64,000 nucleotides of DNA. Origin: Myxococcales bacterium SG8_38 (GTDB taxonomy: Bacteria; Myxococcota_A; Polyangia; Polyangiales; Houyiibacteriaceae). Below the pieces are notes generated by a model. The model did no database searches and had not been told where the DNA came from. It was given only the letters and a program-made list of their open reading frames with translations. Positions 22,487 through 36,913 of the stretch are shown here, in pieces (the stretch's first letter is position 1; the number at the start of each line of letters is the position of its first letter). Location of the stretch: positions 83,759 through 147,758 of the forward strand of contig LJTN01000006.1 in the NCBI GenBank assembly GCA_001303415.1, in the 5' to 3' direction. The position numbers and the translations under genes were made by a program.

Positions 22487-23472
22487 CGGATTACCTCGAC
22501 ATCAGGTCCGGGCTCCGCAATCCAGGTTCGAGTCACACCGGGTGTGCGGTCGAGGGCCTGACGCACGCGGTACGCATCCCCCATCCGGCAAAGCGTCTTG
22601 ACGTGTGGTCCTGCATCCATCGTGGCCCATGCAGAGACGCCACGCTCGCGAAGCCCTCGAACGGTGGCGAGCGCGGCCAACGTCGCTGGCGCCCAGTACA
22701 GGATCGGAGGATCGGAGGTGATGGCGCAACAATGAAAGGCAAGCGTGCTTCGCTCCATCGCCGCGCCGAGCACGTCCAGATCGCGGTCCCTGATGGCGCG
22801 CTTGATCGTCCTGGCCCACCCAGGCGCGGCCTCCAACCAAGCCTGATAATAGGGGGACGTCTTGCGCGATCGCTCCATGCCTTCGGTGGAGCCGACCTTT
22901 TTCTTTCCTGGCTCCGTCAACGCGACGATCAATCGCAGGTTCCAATGGTCGGCCGGCGCGAGCTGTCGCGCCGACAAGTCGCTTTCGCCGCGACGTCCCG
23001 CGGGTAGCTCGACGAAGCCGCCGAAAATCGAGCGGGCCGCCGAGGCGCTCGATACCCGCGCCAAGGCGCTGAGGCGGCGAGGGTCGTGCTTGAGCCCTGC
23101 AGCTGCGCACGCTGCAGCCGCAAGCGCTGCAAATCCCGATGCGCTCGAGGCGAGGCCGGCGGCCGTCGGGAAATGATTGTGGCTGGTGACCTTCGCGCTC
23201 GAGCGGAGGCGCGCTTCGCGTCGAATGCGCTCGAGCATGGCGATCACGCGGGCGGCTTCGGCCGCGGAGGCGCGCCGACCGTCGAGGCGCACCTCGTCAG
23301 TCGAAAGAGAGGGGTCGAACCGCACCCGCGTCTCGGTGACCAACTGGCTCAACGTCAAAGAGATACTCGGCACGGCAGGTACGTTCCACTTTGGATCTGC
23401 CTTTCCCCAGTACTTCGCGAGCGCGATGTTCGCGCATGCCTTCGCGCTCGCCTCCATGGGACGATCATTCAC
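22483..23472 (-). CDS. mvaD: Diphosphomevalonate decarboxylase
   Basis: A 329-residue GHMP-type enzyme that makes isopentenyl diphosphate from mevalonate diphosphate. Diagnostic blocks are the N-terminal ANIALAKYWGK, PAVPSISLTLS, HNHFPTAAGLASSASGFAAL, the GKKKVGSTEGM loop and the catalytic Asp in WATMDAGPHVKTLC. Starts at GTG 23472 with GAGG seven bases upstream, overlapping the mevalonate kinase stop as GTGA. The assignment is secure. Confidence 0.96.
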   Translation of the reverse strand: MNDRPMEASAKACANIALAKYWGKADPKWNVPAVPSISLTLSQLVTETRVRFDPSLSTDEVRLDGRRASAAEAARVIAMLERIRREARLRSSAKVTSHNHFPTAAGLASSASGFAALAAAACAAAGLKHDPRRLSALARVSSASAARSIFGGFVELPAGRRGESDLSARQLAPADHWNLRLIVALTEPGKKKVGSTEGMERSRKTSPYYQAWLEAAPGWARTIKRAIRDRDLDVLGAAMERSTLAFHCCAITSDPPILYWAPATLAALATVRGLRERGVSAWATMDAGPHVKTLCRMGDAYRVRQALDRTPGVTRTWIAEPGPDVEVIR

Positions 23473-24365
23473 GGGCTCACCTCGGCGATGAAGGCCCCCT
23501 GCCCCAGAACGTCACGAATGCGACGTGCTTCTTCGGGTTTGGGCGCAAGCGCGAACATGCATCCCCCTCCCCCTGCGCCGGTCATCTTGGCGCCGAGGGC
23601 TCCCGCCGCGCGCGCGGCCCGGCACATCGCGTCCAGCTTGGTGGTGCAGAGCATCAATGAGCTGAGAATCGTGTGGTTGAGGTCTAGCAACTGCCCGAGC
23701 CCGACGTGATCGCCCGTTTCGATTGCAACCTTGGCATTGCGAACCAACGATTCGATCGCTTCGAATGCTCCTTCGACTCGCTTTGGCTCCTCGCGCAACT
23801 GCCGTGCGACCGAAGCGACCATTTCCTTGGTGCTCGATGGCTCTTCGGTGCAGCCAATGACGAGGTGCAGCGGCTTGTTCGAATAGAGAGGCTCGAGCGG
23901 CTGTCCCCTTCGGAAGAGCGCGACGCCTCCCACGGCCGACATGGTGTTGTCGACTCCGGATGGGTTGCCGTGGAAGACCTGCTCCCAAACGAGGGCGGCT
24001 GCGCCGAGCGCCTCGCGCGAGCGTTGCACACCGAGCGCCGCGTCGATGGCGTCGAGCACTGCGACCCCAATCGCCGCCGAGCATCCGAGTCCGGCTCCCG
24101 CAGGAAGCTCGACCTGAGCGTCGATCCTGAGCGGCGGGCGCTCGGGATAGGTCGCGAGCACGGCCGCGAATGCACGTTCCAGAGGCTCGCTCCCGTGCGG
24201 GTCCGGCTGAATCGTAAGCCCCCAAGGAGCGAGGCGGAGCAGATCGGCTCGCCCAATGGTTGCTTCGGCCGTGACGCCTCGGTCGATGCCCACTGCGATT
24301 GCCGGAAAGCCATGCACCACGGCGTGCTCGCCGAGAAGGATGACCTTTCCCCTACCGAACCCCAT
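23469..24365 (-). CDS. mvaK1: Mevalonate kinase
   Basis: A 298-residue GHMP kinase with GKVILLGEHAVVHGFPAIA, the HAVVHG form typical of mevalonate kinases, then a phosphate-binding GAGLGCSAAIGVAV (Cys where Ser is usual), FHGNPSGVDNT and KMTGAGGGGCMFALA. It phosphorylates mevalonate at C5. The ATG at 24365 overlaps the prenyl synthase stop by one base (TGATG). The pathway in this window runs from mevalonate to IPP, DMAPP and a prenyl chain; HMG-CoA synthase and reductase are absent here. Confidence 0.94.
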   Translation of the reverse strand: MGFGRGKVILLGEHAVVHGFPAIAVGIDRGVTAEATIGRADLLRLAPWGLTIQPDPHGSEPLERAFAAVLATYPERPPLRIDAQVELPAGAGLGCSAAIGVAVLDAIDAALGVQRSREALGAAALVWEQVFHGNPSGVDNTMSAVGGVALFRRGQPLEPLYSNKPLHLVIGCTEEPSSTKEMVASVARQLREEPKRVEGAFEAIESLVRNAKVAIETGDHVGLGQLLDLNHTILSSLMLCTTKLDAMCRAARAAGALGAKMTGAGGGGCMFALAPKPEEARRIRDVLGQGAFIAEVSP

Positions 24366-25369
24366 CAGCTCCCTCGTTCCGTCAGCCGGAGCGTGACCTC
24401 TTCGAGCATCTGCTTGGCGTCATCGTCGAAGGGGCTCGCGGTGACCGCATCTCGCGCTTCGTCGGCCAGCAAAGCCAATCGCGCTTCGACCTCGGTCTTC
24501 GCCTCCGAAAGGACGTCCCACGCGGCTTGCAATGCGTGGTCGCTCGCGTCCGCGCGCCCCCACACCGCCTCGAGCGCCGCGCGCGCCGCAGCGCTTGGCT
24601 CGAGCCTGCGAAACGCCGCCACCACCGCGTTGTGCTTCCCATGACGCAAGTCGTCTCCGGGCTTGCCGATCTCCTGGACGCTTCCGAAGGTGCCGAGCAA
24701 GTCGTCGCGGAGCTGGAACGCGACACCCAATGGTGCGGACCAACGCCGAAGCGCGTCCATGGACGCAGCGTCCGCCCCTGCCAGGATGCCTCCGAGCTCG
24801 GCGGGGCCCCGAGTCGTGTAGCTGCCGGTCTTCAAGTCGTGCATTCGTTCGACGTCCGCGTCCGTCATGAGGTCGAGCTGCTGCCCGGCAAACACCTCTT
24901 TTTGCATTTCGACGAAGAGGGTCAGCCCGTCGTCGCGCCGGCCGGGAGGGAACTGGCCGCGCAAGAGGAGCTCCCAACTGAACGTCGACGCCAAATCGCC
25001 CGCCAGAATACCGAGGCTCGCGCCGAGGTGCTGCGCGCCGTGCTTGCATTGGAAGGCGTAGTGAACCGCCGGTCCACCTCGCCGCTCACGATCCTGGTCC
25101 ATCCAGTCGTCGTGAATGAGCAGGTACGTTTGAAGCAGCTCGAGCGCCGCGCCCACCTCAACCGTGGCGCTCGGCTCTCCATCGTGGCTGGCCGCCCGAT
25201 GCGCCGCGGCCGTCACGATGGGGCGGAGCCTCTTTCCGCCACGCATGGTGAGGTTCTGCACCTCGACGACCAGCTCGATTGCACGTGGCGACAGTCGTGC
25301 CGCCTCCTCGCACTTCGCCTCGAAAAACGCTTCCAAGACGGCGTCGAGCTGCCGCCGGATTCCATTCAT
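24365..25369 (-). CDS. Polyprenyl synthetase (short-chain, FPP/GGPP type)
   Basis: About 334 residues of trans-prenyltransferase fold. GGKRLRPIV binds the IPP diphosphate. The first Asp-rich motif is LLIHDDWMDQD (DDxxD), the second is FQLRDDLLGTFG (DDxxx), with KTGSYTTRGPAELG between them. It condenses IPP with allylic diphosphates; the bulky residues before the first motif suggest a short product, but length cannot be predicted safely. I use the ATG at 25369 (MNGIRRQLD). The frame is open to 25546, but that part overlaps fni. First gene of the mevalonate operon, divergent from fni. Confidence 0.9.
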   Translation of the reverse strand: MNGIRRQLDAVLEAFFEAKCEEAARLSPRAIELVVEVQNLTMRGGKRLRPIVTAAAHRAASHDGEPSATVEVGAALELLQTYLLIHDDWMDQDRERRGGPAVHYAFQCKHGAQHLGASLGILAGDLASTFSWELLLRGQFPPGRRDDGLTLFVEMQKEVFAGQQLDLMTDADVERMHDLKTGSYTTRGPAELGGILAGADAASMDALRRWSAPLGVAFQLRDDLLGTFGSVQEIGKPGDDLRHGKHNAVVAAFRRLEPSAAARAALEAVWGRADASDHALQAAWDVLSEAKTEVEARLALLADEARDAVTASPFDDDAKQMLEEVTLRLTERGS

Positions 25370-25463
25370 CCAAGAATCGAGAGTCGATAGACCTTGCGCC
25401 ACGGTGTCAGTGTCCTTATTCCGAGCTACGTACACGGCGTTACGCCGCCGGGCAAGCATCGCG

Positions 25464-26507
25464 ATGAGCGAAGACATCGGGAACAGAAAGGCAGACCACC
25501 TCGATCTGTGTGCGACAGACCAGGTCGCGTTTCGGCAACGCACCACGCTGCTCGAATGCGTGCGACTGATGCACCAGTCTCTGCCCGAGGTAGACTACGA
25601 TTCCGTCGACACGCGGGTCCGCTTGCTCGGCAAAGAGCTTCGCGTGCCTTTATTGATTGCAGCAATGACCGGCGGGCACGAGCGCGCTGCCGAGATCAAT
25701 CAATCGCTCGCCTCCATCGCCAACGACCTCGGCTATGCGTTCGGTCTCGGAAGCCAGCGTGCGATGCAGAAGCGACCAGAGACGAGCTGGACCTATCAGG
25801 TCCGGGAGCGTGCGCCAGACGTATTGCTTCTGGGCAACGTCGGCATGGTGCAGGCGCGCGATCTGCCCACCACGACGATCGCGCAAATGCTCGCCGACGT
25901 CGGGGCGGACGCGCTTTGTGTGCACATGAATCCCGCGATGGAGTTGGTTCAGCCCGAAGGCGACCGCGACTTCCGTGGCGGCCTCGCGACGTTTCAGCGC
26001 TTGTGGGCCGAGCTCGACGTTCCCGTCATCGCCAAGGAAACCGGAAATGGAATCAGCCCCCAGGTCGCCGAGAGGTTGCGAGCCGTCGGAGTCAGGTACG
26101 CGGACACATCAGGCGCGGGCGGCACGTCGTGGGTCGGCGTGGAGACCCTACGCGCCGAAGGCGACGGCCGCGCTCTAGGAGAAGCGCTCTGGGATTGGGG
26201 CATCCCAACGGCTGCGTCCGTCCGCTACTGTGTGGATGCGGGCATGACTACCATCGCGACGGGCGGAATTCGCACCGGGATGGACGTCGCTCGCGCCATT
26301 GCCCTCGGCGCCGACTGTGCAGGCATTGCCCGCAACGTCTATCAGGCGTTCCTCGAGGGTGGCATCGACGGTGCGCGCGCGTTCCTGCTCAGAGTCGAGC
26401 GGGAGCTTCGTTCCATCATGCTCTTGTGTGGAGCCCGAACCATCGAGGATCTTCAGAAGGTGCCCTACGTGGTGACCGGAGAGCTGCGTCACTGGATCGC
26501 CCCCTAG
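25464..26507 (+). CDS. fni: Type 2 isopentenyl-diphosphate delta-isomerase (FMN-dependent)
   Basis: A 347-residue FMN- and NADPH-dependent TIM barrel enzyme converting IPP to DMAPP. Seen: NRKADHLDLC at the N-terminus, IAAMTGGHERAAEINQSLA, FGLGSQRAMQ, the HMNPAMELVQPEGDRDFRG block, KETGNGIS, DTSGAGGTSWVGVE and ATGGIRTGMDVARAIALGA for FMN phosphate binding. Its divergent position next to the mevalonate operon completes the route to prenyl diphosphates. It converges on mscS: the two stop codons share a single CTAG (26504-26507). Confidence 0.95.
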   Translation: MSEDIGNRKADHLDLCATDQVAFRQRTTLLECVRLMHQSLPEVDYDSVDTRVRLLGKELRVPLLIAAMTGGHERAAEINQSLASIANDLGYAFGLGSQRAMQKRPETSWTYQVRERAPDVLLLGNVGMVQARDLPTTTIAQMLADVGADALCVHMNPAMELVQPEGDRDFRGGLATFQRLWAELDVPVIAKETGNGISPQVAERLRAVGVRYADTSGAGGTSWVGVETLRAEGDGRALGEALWDWGIPTAASVRYCVDAGMTTIATGGIRTGMDVARAIALGADCAGIARNVYQAFLEGGIDGARAFLLRVERELRSIMLLCGARTIEDLQKVPYVVTGELRHWIAP

Positions 26508-27493
26508 GTTTCTCCGGGAACGGTTTCGCGCTCGTCTGCTGGGGGTTGGTAGCGGAGCAGGTCTTCGACCCGTTCGAGCAGTTCCCCCTCGAAGTGGACC
26601 GAAAACCTCGGCTCGAGGAGCTTGGTGCGAACGCGCCAAACCACTGGGTCGGCCGGATCCCGCAGCACCACGGGCGTTGCGCCTGCGAGAACCCAAGGGG
26701 AGCTCAGAATCGCATCGGTGAGCGCCATTCGAACTTTGCTCGCGTCCTCGTAGCCTTCGAGCCGGACGACCACCTCGTGCTCCGCGTCTGCGCCTAGATC
26801 GTACACCATCGGTGCGCCCACCATCGCGCGGTTGGGAACGGTGAGCCGGTGGCCTTGTCCGTCGCGCAGCCACGTCGCGCGCAACGATCGCCCCTCCACC
26901 GTTCCTTGAAAGCCTTCACCCGAAATCCAAACGCCCTTTTTCACGCGGCGCTCCGCCGCCAGCACGATGCCCGCCACGAGATCGGCAAACAGGTCGCGGA
27001 CCGACCAGCCGACCACCACGGCGAGTACCAGCAGCGTCCACAGAATCCAATCCTGCGCGCCCGGAATCAGCTTCAGGACGATGGCCAGGATGATGGCGAG
27101 GCCGCCCAGGCGCAGAAGCATCACCAGCACGGTCAGGACCCCGCGCAGCGCGATGTTGGTCCGGATCCAGCTTCGAGCGCGTTCGGCGACGAACAACACG
27201 ATCCCGAGACCGAGAAGCGCCAAGAACAGAAGCAACAGAGGTCTGCTTTTCTCTTGCGCAGGAGCCCGGGCAGCCGGGGGCTCTGCGCGAAGGGGCATCT
27301 TGGCGATGCTTTCGGGTGGCTCCGGGATCTCGATCCGCGCCTTCCCGGTTCGCTCATGCGGTGCCTCGGGCGCCGGCTCCGACGTCGATGGCGGCGCTTG
27401 CGCATCGTCGAAATCGAGCAGCTGCGCGGAGGACGGCTGAGCCACCAAGGAGGCCAACCACAAGCACCACCATCCTCGCCCTAGTCTCGCCAT
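26504..27493 (-). CDS. MscS-family mechanosensitive channel
   Basis: A 329-residue protein with a signal-peptide-like start (about residues 1-25), a Pro-rich acidic linker, then three hydrophobic segments and the MscS core: a pore-helix region ending FADLVAGIVLAAERRVKKGVWIS, and the beta domain with GFQGTVEGRSLRATWLRDG and HRLTVPNRAMVGAPM. Released ions on hypo-osmotic shock are the known role of the family. It is the last gene of the cation-transport run: its ATG (27493) shares one base with the stop of the antiporter-ATPase gene. An ATG at 27505 is an alternative start. Confidence 0.87.
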   Translation of the reverse strand: MARLGRGWWCLWLASLVAQPSSAQLLDFDDAQAPPSTSEPAPEAPHERTGKARIEIPEPPESIAKMPLRAEPPAARAPAQEKSRPLLLLFLALLGLGIVLFVAERARSWIRTNIALRGVLTVLVMLLRLGGLAIILAIVLKLIPGAQDWILWTLLVLAVVVGWSVRDLFADLVAGIVLAAERRVKKGVWISGEGFQGTVEGRSLRATWLRDGQGHRLTVPNRAMVGAPMVYDLGADAEHEVVVRLEGYEDASKVRMALTDAILSSPWVLAGATPVVLRDPADPVVWRVRTKLLEPRFSVHFEGELLERVEDLLRYQPPADERETVPGET

Positions 27494-30400
27494 CACAACA
27501 CCCATTGCCGCTCCGCAAAGATTCGACCGAGCACACCGCGCAGGTGAACGGCGATCACGAAGGCCCCTTCGCGCTCCTCGAGAAGGCCAAGGTGCGCCAG
27601 GCGGCTCAACTGAGCCTGTGCGGTATTCACGTCGAGCCGGAACAATCGGGCCTGACCCGCCGCGTCGATCCAACCCTGTCGTGCAATCTGGTACAGGTTA
27701 ACCAGAATGTCGTCGGGGAGCCTCTTGATCCGGGTGTACGCCGACGCAGGAATCGGCCCGACGTGCACGATGTCGTCTTGAATGCCGCGAATCGAGGCCA
27801 ACCAGAGTCGGAGCGCGTCCCGTACGAGACCTCCGGTCGCCTGGTGAAGCTCGTGGAAGTACTGATCGTAGGGCCGTCGGATGCGGCTTGCGCTTCGCGC
27901 GAATAGGCCTTCGATTGGGGACCCCTCGCCCCGATCGAACGAATGCTCGTAGCCACTCAGCCGGTGGCGCGCGATGACCGCCGCCTGAAGCTCCTCCTCG
28001 GTCAAGGTCTCTAGGTGAATCACTTCGGGGAACGCGTCTCGCAGGGGCGCAACCGTCGACGCGAAATTCCAGAAGAGCACCGCACCATGGGCGAGCCAGC
28101 GACGGCGGCCGCCTTCTTCGATGATTCCTTTCACGAACCGGCGAAGGGGCTCGAAGCCGCCAGGCGCCATGGACAACATCCAGTGAAGCCCGTCGACGAC
28201 GACGAGCTGACCTTCGGGTGCGTCCTGGAAGATCGCTTCGACGTCCTGGACGGTGACCGGTCCCGTGAAGACGACGCGCCTAACGTTCTTCCATCTTCGC
28301 GACCGCACGATCGCGCTCGACACGGCTGCTTTTCCGACGCCGTCGACGCCGACCAGTGCAACGGAGCGCAAACGCCCCTTCACTTCGCTCGACAGAACGG
28401 CTTCGGCCCGCCGGATTTCCTCATCGCGGCCGGTGAGCACGTCTCCAGCCTCCATGGTGTCCGCGGCGAACAAGCGTCGGTAGACTAGCGGCAGGTCGGC
28501 TGAAACCTCGGGCGCCGCGAAGGCACCGGCGGTGAGCTGCTCAGTAGGCACGCCGCCGACTAGTCCGATGCGTTCGCTCCACCGTTCGAGCCTCTCCTCG
28601 CCGAACAGAGCTCGCAACCCGTTTCGGAGCTGTGTTTTGAGGCGCTTGACTCGTGGGGGCTTCTCGGCTTTCTCGATCATGCGCAGCCCGCTGGCGGCGC
28701 GGCGCATCGCATCGAGCCGAGACTTGCTGAACTCGCCCTCCGCAAGCTCCAGGCGGAGCGTTTCGAGCGTGCCAAATGCAGCCTCGTGCATCTCATCGTG
28801 CACGATCTCGGGCCATCGCTTGGACTCGATCCGAATCTCTTCGAGCGAGTTGTAGCTGCGCTCGAGCTGGCCGTAGACCATGTCTCGCAGAAGCGTGTGC
28901 ATTTCTTCGGGGATCGCTTCGTCGTGCACGATCTCGAGCTCGGCGGTGGCGAGCTCGACGTTGAATGCCACGACTCGCTCTAGCTCCTGCAGCAGATTCG
29001 CAAGTGGCTGCACGCGTTCGGCGAGCTCTCTCCGGCTTGCGAGAAGCTTCGGAGCGACTTGGCTGTCGATGTACGTGAGCACGGCCTCTCGAAACGGAAT
29101 CTCGACTTCGGGCAGTGCGCTCGGAAGCCGCCATTCGCCGGTTTGCCGCTGCCCCACGGCGACTCGGTATCGCGGCGTGAGGCCGCGGCAGGCGTCCACC
29201 AGCGCGTCCAGTAGGGGTGCGATCTTCGTGTCGTCACTCAGATCTTGGTAGAGCTCGTTGGTGACGCGAGCCGCCTCGCCAGTGACCTTGCTGGTCGCCT
29301 CGGTGGCTTTGCGAAGCGCGGCGGCCAGCTCCTCACCGGAATAGTCGCTTTCGAGCTCCACGTTGAGCTCCGCAAGGGCCGTTTCGAGCGTGTCGCTCAC
29401 GCGCTCTACCTGAGAAATCGCCCGCCGTTTCACCGTGTTGGTCAGCCTGAGCACGTACTCGGCGACGTTGTCTCTGACGCGAGCCTCCAGCCCCAGGAGC
29501 TCGAGCTCCATGGCGAGCGACGAGTACTCCGCCGAGCTCGCCCTTCGAAGGTTGGAAACGTCTTTGGTCAGCGTCTCCATGGCCCGCATGCGCGTCGCAA
29601 ACCGGCGGCTCGTACGACGCTCGCTCGCAGGCAGGTCGAGCGTGCAAAAGGTGGGAAGGTCCTCTTTCATGCGGACGAAGCCGGTTGCCAATGCGCTCGC
29701 TGCACGCTGGGTTCCCTCGCTGGTGATGCGAAGCACCTCGTCGAGCGCCAATGCGAGCTCCTCTTCCACCTCATGGCGAAGCCGCACGAGCTGGTGCTCC
29801 AGATCCGCTTCCGGATCGGCACAGATATCGACAACGTCCTCGTAGCCTGCGATCACGGCATCGAACAGGCTCCTCGTGCGAGCCGCCAGATGACGATCGG
29901 CCTCGACGAACAACGCTGCGAGCCCCTCGAGCCTGGCGGGGGCATCGAACGACAAGTGAAAGCGACCCAAGGCTCTGAGCCGAACCTCGCGGTTTGGTGG
30001 AGATTGGCCGAAGGCCTTGCGCCAGCCGCGTTGGAAGCGCAAGAGCTGACGCCTGAGCCCTTTCCAGACGGAATCGCCTTCCTGAGTCTGGTACGAGCGT
30101 TCCTCGTAGGGCGCGTCGACGATTTCCGGCAGGTCGTCGACGATCGCATCGACGCCGCCGAGAATCGTTTCCGGAGTCCAAGTCTGCTTGGAGAGCGTCA
30201 CCGATCGGCCGAGCACGATTCCGCGCCAGTGCGCGGCAAGCTCGGACTGCGCCGATCGCAACATCGTCAGGAGCTCGTCGCGGTCCGCTTGATCCTCTGC
30301 ACGGGCCTGGACGGTCAATCTTCGGTGTTGACGGAGGAACTCGCGGCGTAGGTCACGCAGGTACTTGCTGGATTCGACCTGAAATTCGCGAAGGGGCCCG

Positions 30401-32007
30401 GTCGATACCTCGCGGACGATGTTTTGAAGCTCTCCAGCGAGGTCTTGCATCCTGGCATTGAGCTCGTCGCTGTTGGTCTGCAGCGGTTCGCCCCACAGGT
30501 CCTTTTCGCCCACGTGCTCGGGCCAAGGCTCGAGCTTTTTCGGTGGGCCGCCTTCGGCCTCCGGCCGAAGCGCCGGGGGCTTCACCGACAAGTGATGGGC
30601 GGGGGCGACCGGCTTCCGGCTCGAGCTCGTCTCACCTGCCAGGCTCAGGCCGAGCTTGAACAAGACGGGCCCGACCAGCTCGTTGATTGCGACCCCACCG
30701 ATGATGAGCGTTTCGATGGAGCGCCCGAGTTCGCCAAACGTGTTACCGACGATTGCGGCCAGCAGAATCGAGACCCCGGCCTGGGAGACGAACCCCATCC
30801 ATCCAAACGTTCGAGTCGCTTCGTCGGCTTTGCTGAGACGCGCCCCCATGTTGGTCCCTGCGTAGATCGCGAAGGCTCGGACGCCCACCAAGGCCACTGC
30901 AAAGAGGGCGACCTGGCGAAGTTGATCCAAGTGCAGCTTCGCGCCCGCGAGCGTGAAGAAGACCACATACACGGGAAGTGACAGTCGCTCGACGATTTCG
31001 ATGAGGCGATGCCCCGTCTTCGAGAAGTTCGAGACTCCGAAGCCCGCCGCGAGGAAGACCAGCACCGGATCCCAACCCAGCTGACTGGTGATGAATGCCA
31101 CCAGGTACACCACGCCGACCACGAAGATCAGGAGCTCCTGATTGACGAAGCGGATGTAGAGCGCCATCAATCCGCCGACGACCACCGCCCCAAAGACGAT
31201 CGAAACCAGGATGTGTCGCACCAGATAGGCGCCGATCCCACCCTCCATCGCGGTGACGCCGATTTGTTGGGCGACGAATACTTGGGCCACGGCGAAAGCC
31301 ATGACCACCACCACGTCCTTGAGGACCACGACCGAAAGGACGGTCCGGGTCACGGGCCCTGCAGCCCGGGACTCCATGATGACCGCGATCGTCGCCGCCG
31401 GAGAGGTCGCGAGCGCGACGGAGGCCACCATCGCACCCACGGCCAGCGCCGCTGCCATCGGAAGCCCCTCCAATCCTGGAAGGCCGATGTACGGAACGAC
31501 CCCAGAGATCAGCCACATCAACCCGGTGACCAACACGCCGATGGAAACGATCTGCGCTGCGAGCACGGAGGCGATGACGCGCAGGCCTTTTCGAAGCCCT
31601 TCCAGCTTCAGCTCGCCGCCAGCGGTGATGGCGATCAGAGCAACCGCCAAGGTGTCGAACAGACTGAGCTGCTCGATGACCTCGTCGTTTAGAATTCCCT
31701 TGTCGAATGGCGGGGGCAGGCCGAGCCCGGACACGGCCTTTGCGAGAGACGGCCCGAACACGAGCCCCGCGATCAGGTAACCGGTGATGTGGGGGAGCCG
31801 TATCTGGCTGACCAGCCCGCCAATCGTGTAGCTGGCCAACACGACGAACCCGAGGGCAAGCATCCCGGTCGGGTCGAAGTCGTTCTTGGTGAATTGCTCG
31901 AATTGATAGAGCGCCACCATGCCGAAAAGCAGCAGCACGATGACGGTGATCTGACGGCGCGCGTGGGTCTCCTCGCCCGGCGGCGGCATGCTGTACGAGC
32001 CGGTCAT
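27493..32007 (-). CDS. CPA2 antiporter fused to a long helical stalk and a P-loop ATPase with winged-helix-like C-terminus
   Basis: A 1504-residue single chain. Residues about 20-455 form a CPA2 (Kef/NapA-like) antiporter with roughly 12-13 helices: VSQIRLPHITGYLIAGLVFGP is the family's second-helix block (positions 67-87), and the ion-site helix reads VVVLKDVVVV, a Lys-Asp pair where others have Asn-Asp, Asp-Asp or Gln-Asp. Residues about 510-1150 are almost entirely charged amphipathic helix, probably coiled coil. Residues about 1190-1400 are a P-loop NTPase: GVDGVGKAA (1220-1228) and LVVVDGLHW (1268-1276). The Walker A lacks the usual Thr/Ser after Lys. Residues about 1425-1504 look like a winged helix (NTAQAQLSRLAHLGLLEER). 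Overlaps trkH and mscS by one base each. Role inferred: ATP-gated or regulated monovalent cation/H+ exchange. Confidence 0.85.
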   Translation of the reverse strand: MTGSYSMPPPGEETHARRQITVIVLLLFGMVALYQFEQFTKNDFDPTGMLALGFVVLASYTIGGLVSQIRLPHITGYLIAGLVFGPSLAKAVSGLGLPPPFDKGILNDEVIEQLSLFDTLAVALIAITAGGELKLEGLRKGLRVIASVLAAQIVSIGVLVTGLMWLISGVVPYIGLPGLEGLPMAAALAVGAMVASVALATSPAATIAVIMESRAAGPVTRTVLSVVVLKDVVVVMAFAVAQVFVAQQIGVTAMEGGIGAYLVRHILVSIVFGAVVVGGLMALYIRFVNQELLIFVVGVVYLVAFITSQLGWDPVLVFLAAGFGVSNFSKTGHRLIEIVERLSLPVYVVFFTLAGAKLHLDQLRQVALFAVALVGVRAFAIYAGTNMGARLSKADEATRTFGWMGFVSQAGVSILLAAIVGNTFGELGRSIETLIIGGVAINELVGPVLFKLGLSLAGETSSSRKPVAPAHHLSVKPPALRPEAEGGPPKKLEPWPEHVGEKDLWGEPLQTNSDELNARMQDLAGELQNIVREVSTGPLREFQVESSKYLRDLRREFLRQHRRLTVQARAEDQADRDELLTMLRSAQSELAAHWRGIVLGRSVTLSKQTWTPETILGGVDAIVDDLPEIVDAPYEERSYQTQEGDSVWKGLRRQLLRFQRGWRKAFGQSPPNREVRLRALGRFHLSFDAPARLEGLAALFVEADRHLAARTRSLFDAVIAGYEDVVDICADPEADLEHQLVRLRHEVEEELALALDEVLRITSEGTQRAASALATGFVRMKEDLPTFCTLDLPASERRTSRRFATRMRAMETLTKDVSNLRRASSAEYSSLAMELELLGLEARVRDNVAEYVLRLTNTVKRRAISQVERVSDTLETALAELNVELESDYSGEELAAALRKATEATSKVTGEAARVTNELYQDLSDDTKIAPLLDALVDACRGLTPRYRVAVGQRQTGEWRLPSALPEVEIPFREAVLTYIDSQVAPKLLASRRELAERVQPLANLLQELERVVAFNVELATAELEIVHDEAIPEEMHTLLRDMVYGQLERSYNSLEEIRIESKRWPEIVHDEMHEAAFGTLETLRLELAEGEFSKSRLDAMRRAASGLRMIEKAEKPPRVKRLKTQLRNGLRALFGEERLERWSERIGLVGGVPTEQLTAGAFAAPEVSADLPLVYRRLFAADTMEAGDVLTGRDEEIRRAEAVLSSEVKGRLRSVALVGVDGVGKAAVSSAIVRSRRWKNVRRVVFTGPVTVQDVEAIFQDAPEGQLVVVDGLHWMLSMAPGGFEPLRRFVKGIIEEGGRRRWLAHGAVLFWNFASTVAPLRDAFPEVIHLETLTEEELQAAVIARHRLSGYEHSFDRGEGSPIEGLFARSASRIRRPYDQYFHELHQATGGLVRDALRLWLASIRGIQDDIVHVGPIPASAYTRIKRLPDDILVNLYQIARQGWIDAAGQARLFRLDVNTAQAQLSRLAHLGLLEEREGAFVIAVHLRGVLGRIFAERQWVL

Positions 32008-33497
32008 CAGCGCCTCCAGAACCCCGGCAGGACCAGCGCGAACAAGGTGAAGAACTCGAGCCGTCCTAGCAGCATCGCAAGCGCGAAGAACAACTTGCTA
32101 GCCGCGGAGTAGCCCGCGAAGTTGTCTGGGCCCACGTGGAACGGAGCGGGGCCCATGTTCGACAGACAGGTCAGCATGGCGCCGAAGGCGGTGGGCATCG
32201 GAACGCCCTCGACCAGTGTCACGTACAGCAGCCCAAAGGCGATGCAGCCCATGTAGATGAGGAAGAACGATGCGACGTCGGCAAGCACCTGACTGCTGAT
32301 GGTGGCTTTGCCCATTCGGACGAGCTGCACCGTGGCGGGCCGGAAGCTCTTCTGAATCTGGGCGACGGCTTGCTTGCCCATCAGCACGGCGCGCTCGACC
32401 TTGATTCCGCCGGCAGTCGAGCCCGAGCACCCTCCGACGAACATGAGCAGGATGACGATGGTGAGCGCCGCTGAGCCGTAGGCGCTGTAATCGTCCGTGC
32501 CGTATCCGGTCGACGAAATCGTCGTCGCGACCATGAAAAACGAGTATCGAAACGAGGTCAGCAGCTCGCGATGCACTTCGAGATTGAGAAGCGTGAGCAG
32601 GAACACGGAGACCAACACGATGGCGACGTACGATCGAAACTCGATGTTGCGCACCAGATGCTTCCAGCTCCCCGTGCGCAACAAGCCGTAGTAGAGGCCG
32701 TAGTTGACGCTTCCGATGAGCATGAAGCAGGCGACCACATACTCGACCGCTGGACGGTTGAATCCTCCGATCGAGCTATCAAGCGTGGAGAAACCGCCCG
32801 TCGACATGGTGGTGAACGCATGGCAAACGGCGTCGAAGAGGTCGAGCCCAAGAAGCTTGAGCAACGCGATCTCGATCAGCGTCAACGCGGCATAGAGCTT
32901 CCAGAGGGTGAACGACGTTTCGGCGATGCGCGGGCGCAGCCCTTCGGCAGAGATGCCCGGAACCTCTCCGCGAAAGAGGTGCTTGCCCCCGGCTCCCAAA
33001 TTCGGAAACACAGCGACGAAGAGCACGACGATACCCATCCCGCCGAGCCACTGGATCAACGACCGCCAGAGCAGAAGAGGCCGCGACAGCCGTCCCTCGA
33101 TGTCGGTGACGACCGTGGCGCCGGTGGTCGTCAACCCGCTGACCGCCTCGAAGAACGAATCGGCGACGGGCATGTCGGCCCCCAAAATGAAAGGAATGGC
33201 CCCGCAGGCGCCTGCCGCGAACCAGATCAAGCTGACCGCGAGCAGCGCTTCGCGACGCGAAATACGCTCGGACACGAATCGCCTGCCATAGAGGAATGCG
33301 GTCATGCCGATGGCCGAAACGATGATGGCAGACAGCGCGAGCGCCGCGGCGCCGCCCTGAGGGCGCGTGGGATTGGGAGCGAAGCGATCCCAGAGCATTC
33401 CGACGCCGGCGCACAGCGCCATCATGACGCCGATGCCTAATACGACGGCGCCTACCGGCCGTATCACGCCGCGGAGGTCTCTGGACTTCGAGCTCAC
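32007..33497 (-). CDS. trkH: Trk-type potassium uptake channel subunit
   Basis: A 496-residue membrane protein with the four-fold repeat of the TrkH/KtrB family. The pore loops are visible as EAVSGLTTTGATV, HAFTTMSTGGFST, ATTISSTGYGTDDY and ACLSNMGPAPF, giving the four selectivity-filter glycines. It forms the K+ pathway and is gated by a cytoplasmic TrkA ring. Starts at GTG 33497, overlapping the trkA stop as GTGA, and ends with TGATG into the antiporter-ATPase gene. The tight linkage suggests a common stoichiometry or control. Confidence 0.95.
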   Translation of the reverse strand: MSSKSRDLRGVIRPVGAVVLGIGVMMALCAGVGMLWDRFAPNPTRPQGGAAALALSAIIVSAIGMTAFLYGRRFVSERISRREALLAVSLIWFAAGACGAIPFILGADMPVADSFFEAVSGLTTTGATVVTDIEGRLSRPLLLWRSLIQWLGGMGIVVLFVAVFPNLGAGGKHLFRGEVPGISAEGLRPRIAETSFTLWKLYAALTLIEIALLKLLGLDLFDAVCHAFTTMSTGGFSTLDSSIGGFNRPAVEYVVACFMLIGSVNYGLYYGLLRTGSWKHLVRNIEFRSYVAIVLVSVFLLTLLNLEVHRELLTSFRYSFFMVATTISSTGYGTDDYSAYGSAALTIVILLMFVGGCSGSTAGGIKVERAVLMGKQAVAQIQKSFRPATVQLVRMGKATISSQVLADVASFFLIYMGCIAFGLLYVTLVEGVPMPTAFGAMLTCLSNMGPAPFHVGPDNFAGYSAASKLFFALAMLLGRLEFFTLFALVLPGFWRR

Positions 33498-34834
33498 TCA
33501 CCCCTCGGTCGAAAGAGCCGTTCGACGGTGGCACGCGCGTCCTTGGTGGTCATGAGGATGACCCGATCGCCCGGATGCACGACATCCTTGCCACGGGGAA
33601 TGATCACGTCGTCGCCGTGCACGATGGCGGCAAGGAGGGAGCCTCGGGGTAGATTCATTCGGTGCAACGGCTTGTTGACGGCGCGGCACTTGGCGCTCGC
33701 CGTCAGCTCGACCACCTCCGCCTGCCCGTCCTCGAGGACCGTTAGGCTGTGGAGGCCGCCGCCACGCGAGAAGCGCAAGATCTGGTCGGATGCCACAGTC
33801 CGGGGCGACAAGACGATGTCGACTCCGAGTTGGCGGTAGATCGTCGCATAGTCTGCTCGCTGAACGATGGTCGCAGTCCGTTTGCAGCCGGCGCGCTGTG
33901 CGAGCAGGGCAGCCATCAGATTGATCTCGTCCTGCCGGGTGACCGCTGCAAACAAGTCGTAGGACCCCACCTCTTGCTCCTCGAGCAGGTTGCCGTCGGT
34001 GCCGTCTCCGTGGACGACCTCGATTGCTTGGAACTCCGCGCTGATCTCTTCGGCGGTTTGGAGATCGCTCTCGATCAGCAGGACGGTGGCTCCTTGTTGA
34101 AGAAGCTCCCGAGCGAGCGCCTTTCCGACCACGCCTCCACCCACGATGCACACCCGCCGCGCTTCGCGCTCCTTGCTGAAGAGGCGCTCGGCTGCCAGCA
34201 CGCCTTCGGGCCGACCGATCAAGTAGACGCGATCGCCCTTGACCAACACGTCCGCACCGCCGGGCACGAAGAGCTCTCCGTCGCGCACCACGGCGCTCAC
34301 CAAGGTGTGGGGCGGCATCTCGATCGAGGACAGAGGCTTGTTCAGCACGCGGGACTCCTCGAGATCGATCTGCACGAGCTCGACGCGGTCTTGAGCCAGA
34401 TCGACTACGTCGGATGCACCGTACGAACGCGCAATCCGGCTGAGCTCTTGGGCGACCAGCACGCGGGGATTGATGACCACGTCTACGCCGAGCAGGCCGT
34501 ATCGAATACCCTCGGTCCATTCCGACCAAGCCGTGCCCTGAACACGCGCAACCACGTGCTTGGCGCCGAGCTGCTTCGAAGCAAGCGCGGCAATGAGGTT
34601 CATCTCGTCATGGTTGGTCACCGCCGCGACCAGATCGGCCCGCGCCACGCCGGCAACCTTGAGCAGGGTCTCGCTCGCGCCGTAGCCGACCATCGAAGCT
34701 ACGTCGAAATGCTCCTCCGCGTACTGCACCGCCTTGGCGCTCGTATCGACGGCCACGATGTCGTGCCCCTCTTTGTCGAGAACGCTCAGCAGGTGGCGGC
34801 CCACCTCTCCCAAACCTATGACGACGATGTTCAT
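33494..34834 (-). CDS. trkA: Trk potassium system NAD-binding regulatory subunit
   Basis: A 446-residue peripheral protein with two tandem RCK units. The first begins MNIVVIGLGEVGRHLL, the second VCIVGGGVVGKALARELL; both are Rossmann loops binding NAD(H) or ATP. Each is followed by a TrkA-C domain (ending near VYLIGRPEGV and RVILMTTKDA). It assembles as a ring that gates TrkH. ATG at 34834 overlaps the upstream antiporter stop as ATGA. It may also serve the neighbouring CPA2 proteins, since RCK domains gate Kef-type exchangers; that is inference. Confidence 0.95.
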   Translation of the reverse strand: MNIVVIGLGEVGRHLLSVLDKEGHDIVAVDTSAKAVQYAEEHFDVASMVGYGASETLLKVAGVARADLVAAVTNHDEMNLIAALASKQLGAKHVVARVQGTAWSEWTEGIRYGLLGVDVVINPRVLVAQELSRIARSYGASDVVDLAQDRVELVQIDLEESRVLNKPLSSIEMPPHTLVSAVVRDGELFVPGGADVLVKGDRVYLIGRPEGVLAAERLFSKEREARRVCIVGGGVVGKALARELLQQGATVLLIESDLQTAEEISAEFQAIEVVHGDGTDGNLLEEQEVGSYDLFAAVTRQDEINLMAALLAQRAGCKRTATIVQRADYATIYRQLGVDIVLSPRTVASDQILRFSRGGGLHSLTVLEDGQAEVVELTASAKCRAVNKPLHRMNLPRGSLLAAIVHGDDVIIPRGKDVVHPGDRVILMTTKDARATVERLFRPRGE

Positions 34835-36171
34835 CTAGCCTTGACCTCGATCGATGTGCGAGAGTCGGTCTCGTTCAGCTCGCGTTGAATCCCGCCTTCG
34901 TCGGCAAGCAGCCCTCTCAGCAACCGCGGGGCGAGTAGGTCGTTCAGAATGACCGAGCCCAAGACGACCGAGTAAGCGATGTCGGCGGCTCCACCCTTGT
35001 AGACGAGTCGGAAGGACACCGCCATGGCCAGGGTGACGTCGCCGTGCGCCAAGAGCCCTCGGAACAAGTCTTTACGCAGAGTCGTGCCCCATGCCGCAAC
35101 GATGCTGGCAATCCATTTGGCGGTGGTTCGAACGACGAGAAAGCCGCCGAGCGCGAGCAAGGTGGACCAGAGCGGGGTCGGGACCCAGAGGGCACCGGCG
35201 AAGATCAACAAGACGATCGCCATCGGCCGTTCCGTCGACTCGAGGGTCGTGTGCAGAAGCTGCCCGCCGCGCGCGAAGTTCACCAGCACGAAGCCCATCG
35301 CGAGATTCACTGCAAGCGGCGAAAGCTGAAGGAAAAAGGCCCCGCCCGAGGCGAAAGCGATGATTCCTACCAGTGCGAGGAACCGGGAGTTGTCCGATTC
35401 GTCGCCCGCCAAAAAGAGCGAGAAGAGAAAGCCTAGCGCACCGCCGAGCAGCACCGTGACCCAGGCCCAGAGCGCAGGGGAGTAGACTCGAGCGGCAGGG
35501 TCGTTCTCGTGGAATACGCAGAAGATCAAGCCGAACGCCAATATCACGGCGATGTCTCCGAGGCGCGTTCCGTTCCTCAGCAGGGGTGCCAGCCGCCCGC
35601 TGATCTCATAGCGTCTGGCGAGAAGGTCGAACGGCTCTGCCGAATCTGCAGCGGCGAAGCACGCAAGCGCCGAAGCACTGAGCGCCGCCGTTCGAGCCGT
35701 GGTCTCGACGTACCCGGAGGCAGTGAAGAAGTAGTACGCGCCGAACCCGACCGCGGCGCCTGGCAGCAGATGATGAAGAAACACGATCCGCCAAGTCGCC
35801 GGATCGAGCCTTTGTAGGCTGGTGAAGTCGAAGTCGGTTCCGCGCAAGAGCCCGACCCACCCCGCGGCGAGCGCGATGATTGGAAGCAGACCGGTGAGAT
35901 TGTCGAATGCGCCGATGGCAGGGAAGGTGGGTCCGAGCAGCACGCCGAGCAGAAGGTACTCCGCCCCGCTCACCACCAGGAAGCGACGTTGAAGGCGCTC
36001 AACGACGTTGTGGGCCAGCACGTATGCCACCCCAATCACCACGACGAGCAACACCACGGTGCCGAGCTCTCCCGCTCCACCCGCAGGACCTCCCTGCTGG
36101 CCAGCCGCGTATGCGACTCCCGGCAGTGCTGCCAAAGCCAGCACCGCGGTCCCCATCAGCCTCCGCGCCAT
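34831..36171 (-). CDS. CPA2-family cation/proton antiporter
   Basis: A 446-residue membrane protein with a signal-like first helix (residues 4-22) and about 12 further helices. GAEYLLLGVLLGPTFPAIG resembles the second-helix block of CPA2 exchangers. The ion-site helix reads TRLGDIAVILAFG, with Gly-Asp rather than the common Asn-Asp or Gln-Asp pair. LLAHGDVTLAMAVSFRLVYKGG near the C-terminus is also family-like. The start is the ATG at 36171; the open frame upstream to 36369 runs into the tetR gene. First of five overlapping genes. It lacks the ATPase extension seen in the second antiporter at 27493-32007. Confidence 0.82.
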   Translation of the reverse strand: MARRLMGTAVLALAALPGVAYAAGQQGGPAGGAGELGTVVLLVVVIGVAYVLAHNVVERLQRRFLVVSGAEYLLLGVLLGPTFPAIGAFDNLTGLLPIIALAAGWVGLLRGTDFDFTSLQRLDPATWRIVFLHHLLPGAAVGFGAYYFFTASGYVETTARTAALSASALACFAAADSAEPFDLLARRYEISGRLAPLLRNGTRLGDIAVILAFGLIFCVFHENDPAARVYSPALWAWVTVLLGGALGFLFSLFLAGDESDNSRFLALVGIIAFASGGAFFLQLSPLAVNLAMGFVLVNFARGGQLLHTTLESTERPMAIVLLIFAGALWVPTPLWSTLLALGGFLVVRTTAKWIASIVAAWGTTLRKDLFRGLLAHGDVTLAMAVSFRLVYKGGAADIAYSVVLGSVILNDLLAPRLLRGLLADEGGIQRELNETDSRTSIEVKAR

Positions 36172-36247
36172 AGCCGCCCAATTGTGAAGAAGAAGCTGCC
36201 GGAGCGGTAGTTTCAAGCTGGACAAGTGTTTAGCCCAGCTCGACCGG

Positions 36248-36913
36248 TCAGCTGCGGAGCCCCTCCAGCACGATGGAGATGAGCCGTTTGGTGGTTTCCA
36301 CTGGGTCCATCTGGATCTGATTTCGCACGGCCGCCAGTGCCAAGGCCTCGACGGCTCCCAACACCGCAAGCGCGCTGACCCTCGGATCGGAAACGGTGAC
36401 GAAGCCCCGGTCGACGGCGGCCTGGCTCAGAGCGATGGCGCTCTCGTCGAGATCGCGCGCCAGATCGGAAATGGCCTGGCGGGCGGGAGTGGCCGGGGCT
36501 CGGCGTTCCTGAAGATACAGGCACATGGCGTCGGCGTGGGTCGCCAGCGCGCCTGCGAGCCGGTTTCCGAGATGCGCGTACGCCGCGATTGCCTCGTCGC
36601 GGCCGTTGGCGCCGCGAAGCCGCCAATGACACTCATCGAGGGCGGATCGCGTCGCGTGCGCCACCGGCTCGACGACCGCTTCCACCAAGTCGGGTTTGTC
36701 CCGGAAATAGCGATAGAAATTCCCTTTCGCCATGCCGGCTTCTCGGGCGACCTCGTCGATCGTGACCGCCTCGACGCCTCGGGCAAGAAATAGCGAAAGC
36801 CCGGCCTCGACGAGATCCTGGACGCGTCGGCGTCGATTCAGATCCCTCTTGCCTCCAACGGCTCCCGGTCGCTCTATCGGCCCGGCCCTTCTGGGCCGCC
36901 TTTCCTCGTCCAT
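36248..36913 (-). CDS. TetR-family transcriptional regulator
   Basis: A 221-residue regulator. The DNA-binding domain has VQDLVEAGLSLFLARGVEAV, then TIDEVAREAGMAKGNFYRYF, the turn-helix typical of TetR. The rest is an all-helical ligand-binding domain. The ATG at 36913 has AGGAG seven bases upstream. It lies 76 bp upstream of the cation-transport run on the same strand and 207 bp from divergent lipA, so it could control either. A perfect palindrome in that gap is a candidate operator. Confidence 0.9.
   Translation of the reverse strand: MDEERRPRRAGPIERPGAVGGKRDLNRRRRVQDLVEAGLSLFLARGVEAVTIDEVAREAGMAKGNFYRYFRDKPDLVEAVVEPVAHATRSALDECHWRLRGANGRDEAIAAYAHLGNRLAGALATHADAMCLYLQERRAPATPARQAISDLARDLDESAIALSQAAVDRGFVTVSDPRVSALAVLGAVEALALAAVRNQIQMDPVETTKRLISIVLEGLRS

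Follow-up and report, generated by a model that had tools for sequence, protein, structure and literature searches.

What could a protein do that carries, in a single chain, a cation exchanger, a long helical stalk, an ATPase-like fold and a winged helix? The question is raised by a locus within the 64,000-nucleotide stretch of DNA analysed here (the window), and we sought its answer in the reading frame, the domains, the homologues and the gene neighbours of the protein concerned.

An uninterrupted and conserved fusion

The fusion protein (27493..32007, minus strand; 1504 aa) begins with an ATG and contains zero internal stops; read on the plus strand, the same interval holds several. A preliminary description had correctly given this uninterrupted chain and its coordinates, leaving out the strand, and its order of exchanger, stalk, P-loop fold and winged helix is upheld by Pfam, AlphaFold, Foldseek and profile searches as well as by homologues. 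The exchanger domain occupies residues about 48-455 (30643..31866, minus strand), as judged from hydropathy and from a match to Na_H_Exchanger (PF00999) at residues 58-447 (E 4.3e-22; 78.9 bits against a cut-off of 26.2). In an alignment of 30 rows, K230-D231 (31315..31320, minus strand) falls where we take the ion-binding pair motif of CPA proteins to lie. Residue 231, at the discontinuous helix, is D in 23 rows, as in the window protein, and E in 3, giving an ion-binding acid in 26 of 30; Asn replaces the Asp in the other 4 exchangers. R377 is R in 30/30 rows. We infer from the sequence that the fusion is a putative monovalent-cation/H+ exchanger, both its transport activity and its ion being predictions. 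In Pfam, TrkA_N (RCK) did not match the fusion at E<=1, and neither RCK nor Usp is among its Pfam matches; CPA2 exchangers usually carry one of these domains, as the preliminary description had noted.

Beyond the exchanger lies a linker (residues 463-488; 30544..30621, minus strand), the modelled part of which (470-488) has a pLDDT below 50. The AlphaFold model of residues 470-1504, built from an alignment of 35 rows (mean pLDDT 84.6, pTM 0.61), predicts long helices followed by a C-terminal head of mixed alpha/beta structure. The helical stalk (residues about 514-1114; 28666..30468, minus strand) has an internal two-fold repeat according to AlphaFold and repeat analysis, and in its own model (pLDDT 90.4, pTM 0.80) it is predicted to be an internally duplicated helical fold. 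Foldseek comparison of the stalk with the PDB returned no chain at E<=0.001, bacterial dynamins appearing only at E about 1, and sequence searches with it gave weak matches only. A weak Pfam match to MnmE_helical (E 0.013) was seen on the fusion.

An assembly join or a frameshift as the source of this chain is ruled out by conserved single frames across many genomes. Homologues were checked for being always split and for a frameshift in residues 460-1190, and the fusion withstood both checks. Of 377 genomes sampled from the phylum, 35 matched residues 470-1504 essentially whole, mostly within open frames of ~1500 aa or longer, and exchanger and AAA-like head share one frame in homologues as low as 21% identity to the window protein; the frame is broken at two loci (L057 and L060). 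All 7 same-genus genomes contain a match (identity 81-84%), and a full-length match is present in 7 of 9 genomes from other genera of the same family; among same-family genomes, G361 has no match and G027 only a weak one. For wider sampling we fetched and read 80 regions in Myxococcota (a subset of all places matched; L245 lies on the same contig as L123), 20 in Bacteroidota (from 48 genomes with a match) and 20 in Gemmatimonadota (from 29). CPA2-type ORFs number 47 in the Myxococcota loci read and 4 in Bacteroidota, so the layout, whose conservation the preliminary description had proposed to check, is kept in many Myxococcota genomes and occurs in Bacteroidota. That description knew of no characterised protein with this order; our literature search likewise found no described counterpart.

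The stalk and head also occur on other mounts. Across loci the head is found alone, with a helical arm, behind CPA2 or, in seven cases, behind an SLC12 domain; L232, the only one of the seven that was searched against the PDB, matched an SLC12A2/NKCC1 chain at E 1.8e-71. L209 has a membrane N-terminus without family assignment. In comparisons run without L056, L064, L157 and other short fragments, the stalks of CPA2 fusions, SLC12 fusions and stand-alone proteins of Bacteroidota and Gemmatimonadota proved homologous (hhalign 98.6-99.9%, against 0.3-0.6% for reversed-alignment controls). The pre-head region of 24 Myxococcota stand-alone proteins showed no detectable relation to the stalk (hhalign 0.1%), and among five subsets of these regions partial stalk similarity appeared for L063 only; L218-L220 of Bacteroidota have a head without a stalk.

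For a quick tree, ahead of which L034, L035, L056, L060, L070 and L071 were dropped, the 47 CPA2 rows comprised the window protein, Myxococcota and 4 Bacteroidota sequences, and are not the same set as the 47 Myxococcota ORFs of the adjacency count. SLC12 fusions formed one group (SH-aLRT 100, with long branches), and CPA2 rows did not form one group, with 4 changes even without fragments. An apparent rejection of a single origin of the CPA2 fusion (p 4e-78) was obtained with three contig-edge fragments labelled stand-alone, and with these left out a single origin was not rejected (p 0.206). Plasmid carriage was set aside, as each of the three plasmid records that matched the fusion did so inside the exchanger part.

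An eroded P-loop and a near-neutral winged helix

The head (residues about 1176-1410; 27778..28482, minus strand) was assigned an AAA-like or STAND-like P-loop fold by Pfam and Foldseek. AAA_16 matched residues 1190-1234 below its cut-off of 32.6 bits, with 18.0 bits on the whole protein and 20.6 on the head alone. The predicted model matched RuvB (best E 2.4e-6), Orc1 (4.8e-5) and Cdc6 (1.2e-4), as well as the plant NLR resistosomes Roq1 (2.8e-4) and Sr35 (4.6e-4), which places it in the AAA+/STAND fold, and nSTAND1 was matched in 8 of 26 head domains. The window protein retains a Walker A remnant, GVDGVGKA (residues 1220-1227; 28327..28350, minus strand), in which Ala stands in place of Ser/Thr, and one Walker B Asp, D1272 (28192..28194, minus strand); the intact pair of motifs is thus absent from it.

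Might the head hydrolyse ATP so as to drive or gate exchange, or gate it by ATP level? The P-loop fold would allow this, and all 7 SLC12 rows keep both GK[ST] and the Walker B acid. However, both motifs persist in only 4 of 47 CPA2 rows, the window protein has GKA, and the Walker A Lys is kept in 0 of 19 stand-alone rows from Gemmatimonadota. These counts rule out an intact ATPase for the window protein and most CPA2 fusions; with the motifs eroded, heads of this type cannot have ATP hydrolysis as their general role. An ATP-driven or ATP-gated exchanger is therefore unlikely, and the coupling to ATP level suggested in the preliminary description finds no backing here. By the alignments, hydrolysis is no conserved requirement, and members that keep the P-loop may bind nucleotide.

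The winged-helix tail (residues about 1424-1500; 27508..27738, minus strand) was delimited from the AlphaFold model, profile search and charge. The winged-helix-type chains that it matched include EutK (E 9e-7) and SmtB (0.0099), and the combination of an AAA+ fold with a winged helix recalls RuvB and Orc1/Cdc6, which act on DNA. Both likenesses would suit a membrane-tethered transcription regulator, with the winged helix on DNA and the exchanger as ion sensor. The charge of the tail argues otherwise: averaged over the 47 CPA2 rows, net charge is close to neutral for the winged helix (+1.1) and not basic for the putative recognition helix (+0.06), and group means for the latter range from +0.06 to -1.1 over 114 rows. 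Winged helices that do not bind DNA are also known from STAND proteins, which counts against such a regulator. We consider it improbable, and the coupling to DNA that had been offered as an option is correspondingly weak.

Genomic linkage to MscS and potassium transport

In the window, the fusion is the fourth of five overlapping genes on the minus strand. The cluster opens with CPAup (34831..36369), a second divergent CPA-like antiporter identified by profile comparison, and continues with a TrkA K+-uptake regulatory subunit (33494..34834; Pfam and NCBIfam), a TrkH-type K+ transporter subunit (32007..33497; PF02386 at E 1.9e-53, and NCBIfam), the fusion and an MscS-family channel (26504..27493; PF00924 with 43.1 bits against a cut-off of 20.2). 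CPAup and TrkA overlap by 4 nt, as do TrkA and TrkH; the TrkH stop overlaps the start of the fusion by 1 nt, and the fusion TGA overlaps by 1 nt the MscS ATG at 27493, a start of our choosing, the longest ORF beginning at 27673. Pfam and NCBIfam gave no match for CPAup; profile comparison relates it to the exchanger domain of the fusion (99.8%, E 1.5e-29), and the ion-pair position is not conserved in it. RNA families yielded no match at gathering score within the window.

The linkage to MscS extends over three phyla. We counted as adjacent an MscS-type ORF on the same strand that overlapped, or lay at most 400 bp from, an AAA ORF of at least 700 aa, with MscS sequence absent from every query. 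Among 78 Myxococcota ORFs, 5 of them at contig edges, 73 have flanks that could be read, and MscS adjoins 69 of these. By the same measure it adjoins all 16 Bacteroidota ORFs of that length (20/20 with four further loci whose AAA ORFs are shorter) and all 20 Gemmatimonadota loci read; split, non-fused forms adjoin MscS as well. The four Myxococcota ORFs without an adjacent MscS are L066, L132, L136 and L158, with an MscS lying ~2 kb downstream in L132 and ~3.5 kb downstream in L158. The MscS match of L216 has only 29 bits. Our profile for MscS had been built from 13 ORFs of these same loci, so a check with the PF00924 model of Pfam itself matters: at least one match adjoins an AAA gene in 20 of 20 genomes, which together hold 122 matches, or 6.1 per genome, and we estimate chance adjacency at ~0.3% (2 flanks x 6.1 / about 4500 genes). 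The genomic linkage of head and MscS is strong.

Two other explanations bear on this linkage. In one, the module regulates ion transport alone, and MscS, which it does not touch, is simply expressed alongside it for osmotic stress; operons often group related, non-interacting proteins, and Trk and two antiporters share the cluster. MscS nevertheless remains the neighbour in Gemmatimonadota and at many Bacteroidota loci that have no detected fused transporter, CPAup or Trk, and we consider mere co-expression improbable as well. In the other, a STAND-like head senses invasion and opens MscS, and the transporter, permeabilising the cell in defence or programmed death, as the nSTAND1 matches and the likeness to Roq1 and Sr35 might suggest. 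PADLOC gave 0 families for the fusion, CPAup and MscS, the three window proteins scanned, among which a known anti-phage defence system was thus rejected; it likewise found none for the stalk-AAA protein of the Gemmatimonadota locus L117 or for the partner MscS of L115 and L117, and the P-loop matches of the L115 stalk-AAA protein were weak throughout (E 1.8e-4 at best). Moreover, the fusion is present in 7/7 same-genus genomes and at full length in 7/9 from other genera of the family, and it lies in synteny with genes for K+ uptake. A role in defence is very unlikely.

A candidate regulator of osmotic balance and its known relatives

We favour, at a probability of roughly 60%, a tethered regulator in the cytosol, linking cation transport with MscS to control osmotic balance or cell volume. 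A flexible linker would carry a cytosolic regulatory module, the duplicated helical stalk and the AAA/STAND-like head with its winged helix, which lineages would mount on a volume-setting ion transporter (CPA2 exchanger or SLC12 cotransporter) or on none. Head and stalk may form a scaffold, or a switch between conformations, docked on both MscS and the transporter. As osmolarity changes, the module could then coordinate Trk-mediated K+ uptake with cation/H+ exchange by the two antiporters and emergency release through MscS. Adjacency is not contact, and physical contact with MscS, the direction of regulation and the signal sensed are all presumed; among the partners that the preliminary description left open, a protein is the one we prefer, and the neighbouring MscS the most likely. 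Its cytosolic cage is the most plausible docking site. One paper (PMC4440785) reports that the cytosolic domain of E. coli MscS binds FtsZ, so docking there would have precedent.

More tentatively, these proteins could form a one-complex bacterial cell-volume controller, in which an AAA-like and often nucleotide-dead scaffold sits on MscS cages and on the fused transporter and switches between salt accumulation and pressure release. With K+/H+ exchangers or NKCC/KCC relatives as mounts, it would parallel in prokaryotes the volume regulation of animal cells, and have a release channel built in. A dedicated partner for MscS in three phyla, joined in some lineages to cation/H+ exchangers or NKCC/KCC relatives, would imply that volume control is integrated in many bacteria. 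The module provides a testable candidate for coordinating ion accumulation with pressure release, a handle on bacterial SLC12 proteins, and a helical fold to which our search matched no solved structure.

Several known systems share parts of this arrangement. With Kef-type and other CPA2 exchangers the fusion has in common PF00999 above cut-off, the Asp at the ion-pair position and the invariant R377; unlike RCK-gated Kef systems, which have a C-terminal RCK (TrkA_N), it bears in that place a stalk, an AAA-like head and a winged helix that together span ~1000 residues. CPAup can be likened, by size alone, to the divergent myxobacterial CPA2 protein Q1D5P4 of M. xanthus, given in PMC3924187 as having 432 aa and 14 TMS (subfamily 2.A.37.6.1). 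The head shares its fold and winged helix with AAA+/STAND NTPases (AAA_16, nSTAND1; RuvB, Orc1/Cdc6) but differs from them in being joined to a transporter, linked to MscS and, in most CPA2 fusions, eroded at the P-loop. The NKCC and KCC cotransporters of the SLC12 family set animal cell volume under WNK-SPAK kinase control, and to our knowledge have neither an AAA-like head nor an MscS neighbour; a related domain precedes the module in seven homologues, whereas the window protein carries CPA2 instead. Finally, the usual teaching on MscS channels is that they are release valves acting on their own, and in E. coli the mscS gene is flanked by fbaA and argO; the partner gene described here, by PF00924 a clear member of the same family, adjoins a module that may serve both channel and transporter.

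Domain order and authenticity of the fusion protein

For the gene at 27493–32007 (minus strand; a 1504-residue frame), the preliminary description proposed a product that joins an exchanger, a stalk, a P-loop fold and a winged helix, and this order is borne out by Pfam, AlphaFold, Foldseek and matches to the tail. In particular, Pfam places a sodium/hydrogen exchanger domain at residues 58–447 (E 4.3e-22) and a below-threshold AAA_16 match at residues 1190–1234. The AlphaFold model of residues 470–1504 (mean pLDDT 84.6) shows long helices together with a head of mixed alpha/beta structure, with residues 470–488 at low confidence. Foldseek identified the modelled head as AAA+ (RuvB, E 2.4e-6; Orc1, E 4.8e-5), with the plant NLR Roq1 also matching (E 2.8e-4), and the tail resembles winged-helix-type chains (best E 9e-7). 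The stalk modelled alone (pLDDT 90.4, pTM 0.80) has two related halves (87.6%, E 3.5e-6; reversed control 2.8%), each predicted to form a short strand pair surrounded by long helices; no solved structure matched it at E ≤ 0.001. The linker between exchanger and stalk points to a tether, not to a stiff lever.

When residues 470–1504 were used to search 377 genomes drawn from the Myxococcota, 101 were matched, 35 of the 377 over a near-complete span (27–100% identity) and mostly within open frames at least about 1500 aa long. We fetched and inspected 80 places, a subset of these matches, and found exchanger and head sharing one frame in 47 ORFs; four Bacteroidota loci (L210, L211, L212 and L214) have the same CPA2–stalk–AAA layout in frames of 1504–1510 aa. 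These single frames answer the concern that an assembly join or frameshift lay behind the chain: the fusion is not an artefact. The frame is broken in the assembled genomes of two homologues (L057 and L060), and at L157 TrkA and TrkH are followed by an unfused 958-aa stalk–AAA frame and MscS. Neither the fusion architecture nor an MscS–AAA pair was described in the titles and abstract starts of the open-access matches listed; an earlier description in a subscription paper is possible. Passages from PMC3924187 and PMC10219603 do not mention the architecture, and the main text of PMC7159879 contains none of the terms looked for.

The head–winged helix unit and its mounts

Coupling of the exchanger to ATP, DNA or a protein partner had been suggested. 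The P-loop in the window reads GVDGVGKA, with one Walker B Asp. Taking as ATPase motifs a GK[ST] sequence together with an acidic residue at, or immediately after, the Walker B position, and dropping three edge fragments, we found them in 4 of 47 CPA2 rows, in all seven SLC12 rows and in L209; among stand-alone rows, which lack a transporter mount, they occur in 16 of 26 from Myxococcota, 5 of 12 from Bacteroidota and 0 of 19 from Gemmatimonadota. Judged by its motifs, the head is not an ATPase in most members. In the winged helix, charge is close to neutral (the putative recognition helix of CPA2 rows averages +0.06), an argument against binding of DNA by this domain.

The ion-binding position is acidic (D or E) in 26 of the 30 exchanger rows and Asn in four, and Arg377 is present in 30 of 30, so that ion exchange is plausible in most fusion members. 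Four CPA2 fusions (L050, L051, L053 and L055) have Asn-Asn at the ion-pair position; their exchanger domains are possibly non-transporting.

Seven homologues from all three phyla (frames of 1687–1836 aa) carry an N-terminal SLC12-type permease. Four of them (L140, L216, L217 and L232) match AA_permease in Pfam, one also matching SLC12 weakly, and L146, L162 and L215 were added by a profile built from those four. L232, the sole member searched against the PDB, matched SLC12A2/NKCC1 (E 1.8e-71) as well as KCC proteins. The seven are bacterial NKCC/KCC-like SLC12 transporters fused to the stalk–AAA head, with MscS adjacency counted for 7/7 (the L216 match being weak, at 29 bits). At L209 (6065–10462), a stalk–AAA protein lies behind CPAup, TrkA and TrkH, CPAup being a divergent CPA-like antiporter gene; the membrane N-terminus of the stalk–AAA protein is recognised by neither the CPA2 profile nor that for SLC12.

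Stalk homology extends across the CPA2 fusions, the SLC12 fusions and the stand-alones of Bacteroidota and Gemmatimonadota (98.6–99.9%; reversed-alignment controls <1%). The region preceding the head in 24 Myxococcota stand-alones has no demonstrable relation to the stalk, except for partial similarity in L063, and in three Bacteroidota loci (L218–L220) the head has no stalk at all; there its frame is about 450 aa long and overlaps an MscS gene. Because in some loci the stalk is absent or no relation to it could be demonstrated, the constant unit comprises the AAA-like head and its winged helix; a stalk is common without being universal. A quick head tree places the SLC12 fusions in a single group (SH-aLRT 100) but not the CPA2 rows; a single origin of the latter is not rejected (p 0.206). 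A contrary result, due to three contig-edge fragments labelled stand-alone, was discarded.

Linkage of the head to MscS

Besides Myxococcota fusions, a scan of named genomes returned ten distant loci of Bacteroidota type or from Gemmatimonadota (L115–L124). In nine the head lies within a separate frame of 999–1204 aa with no exchanger, L120 being cut by a contig edge. Six (L115–L118, L123 and L124) have an adjoining MscS gene by Pfam (PF00924); for L119 and L122 the neighbour was identified by its resemblance to the window's MscS, and for L121 by a custom profile trained on 13 MscS ORFs from these same loci. The head profile alone (E ≤ 1e-15) matched 48 of 247 Bacteroidota and 29 of 200 Gemmatimonadota genomes. 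For head ORFs 700 aa or longer, and with this custom profile in use, MscS adjoins 69 of the 73 from Myxococcota with readable flanks (78 in total, 5 at contig edges), 16/16 from Bacteroidota and 20/20 from Gemmatimonadota; four shorter Bacteroidota head ORFs likewise adjoin MscS. MscS sequence was absent from every query. Pfam's PF00924 model, in place of the custom profile, gave 122 matches in 20 of these genomes and, when we compared positions, at least one lay beside an AAA gene in each of the 20; given about six MscS genes per genome, we estimate chance adjacency at about 0.3%. In Myxococcota the MscS gene is downstream of the head, and in 18 of 20 Gemmatimonadota loci it is upstream, indicating that the linkage is retained though gene order differs.

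The gene cluster and a proposed working

The window cluster runs CPAup (34831–36369), TrkA (33494–34834), TrkH (32007–33497), fusion and MscS (26504–27493; start codon chosen by us), all on the minus strand, with successive overlaps of 4, 4, 1 and 1 nt. CPAup is recognised by no Pfam or NCBIfam model and aligns with the exchanger domain in profile comparison (99.8%, E 1.5e-29). Since its ion-pair position is not conserved, CPAup may act as a partner subunit and not itself carry out exchange. CPAup is the immediate 5′ neighbour of the fusion, no intervening Trk gene being detected, in 14 of 47 Myxococcota CPA2-type ORFs (L041, L049, L064, L066, L067, L126, L130, L131, L132, L135, L136, L137, L147 and L156), making MscS downstream more constant than Trk upstream.

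One of these loci, L064, holds two copies of the module, in the order stalk–AAA frame (cut by the contig edge), MscS, CPAup, CPA2 fusion and a second MscS-like frame. Beside the window's MscS gene, at 23469–26507, lie putative mevalonate/isoprenoid enzyme genes, which from inspection of their sequences we take to resemble GHMP kinase, polyprenyl synthase and type 2 IPP isomerase; the IPP-isomerase and polyprenyl-synthase genes are retained beside MscS in the same-genus loci L033, L034 and L035.

The ions transported by Trk, CPA2 and SLC12 proteins are K+, Na+ or Cl−, which determine cell volume. Because MscS is a near-constant neighbour, the channel is, on grounds of gene adjacency, the likeliest binding partner of the module. 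Taking this likely partner together with the volume-ion transporters, we propose that the module would serve as a scaffold or switch tying ion accumulation to pressure release. A precedent for a cytosolic protein as partner comes from E. coli, in which the MscS cytosolic domain is reported to bind FtsZ (PMC4440785).
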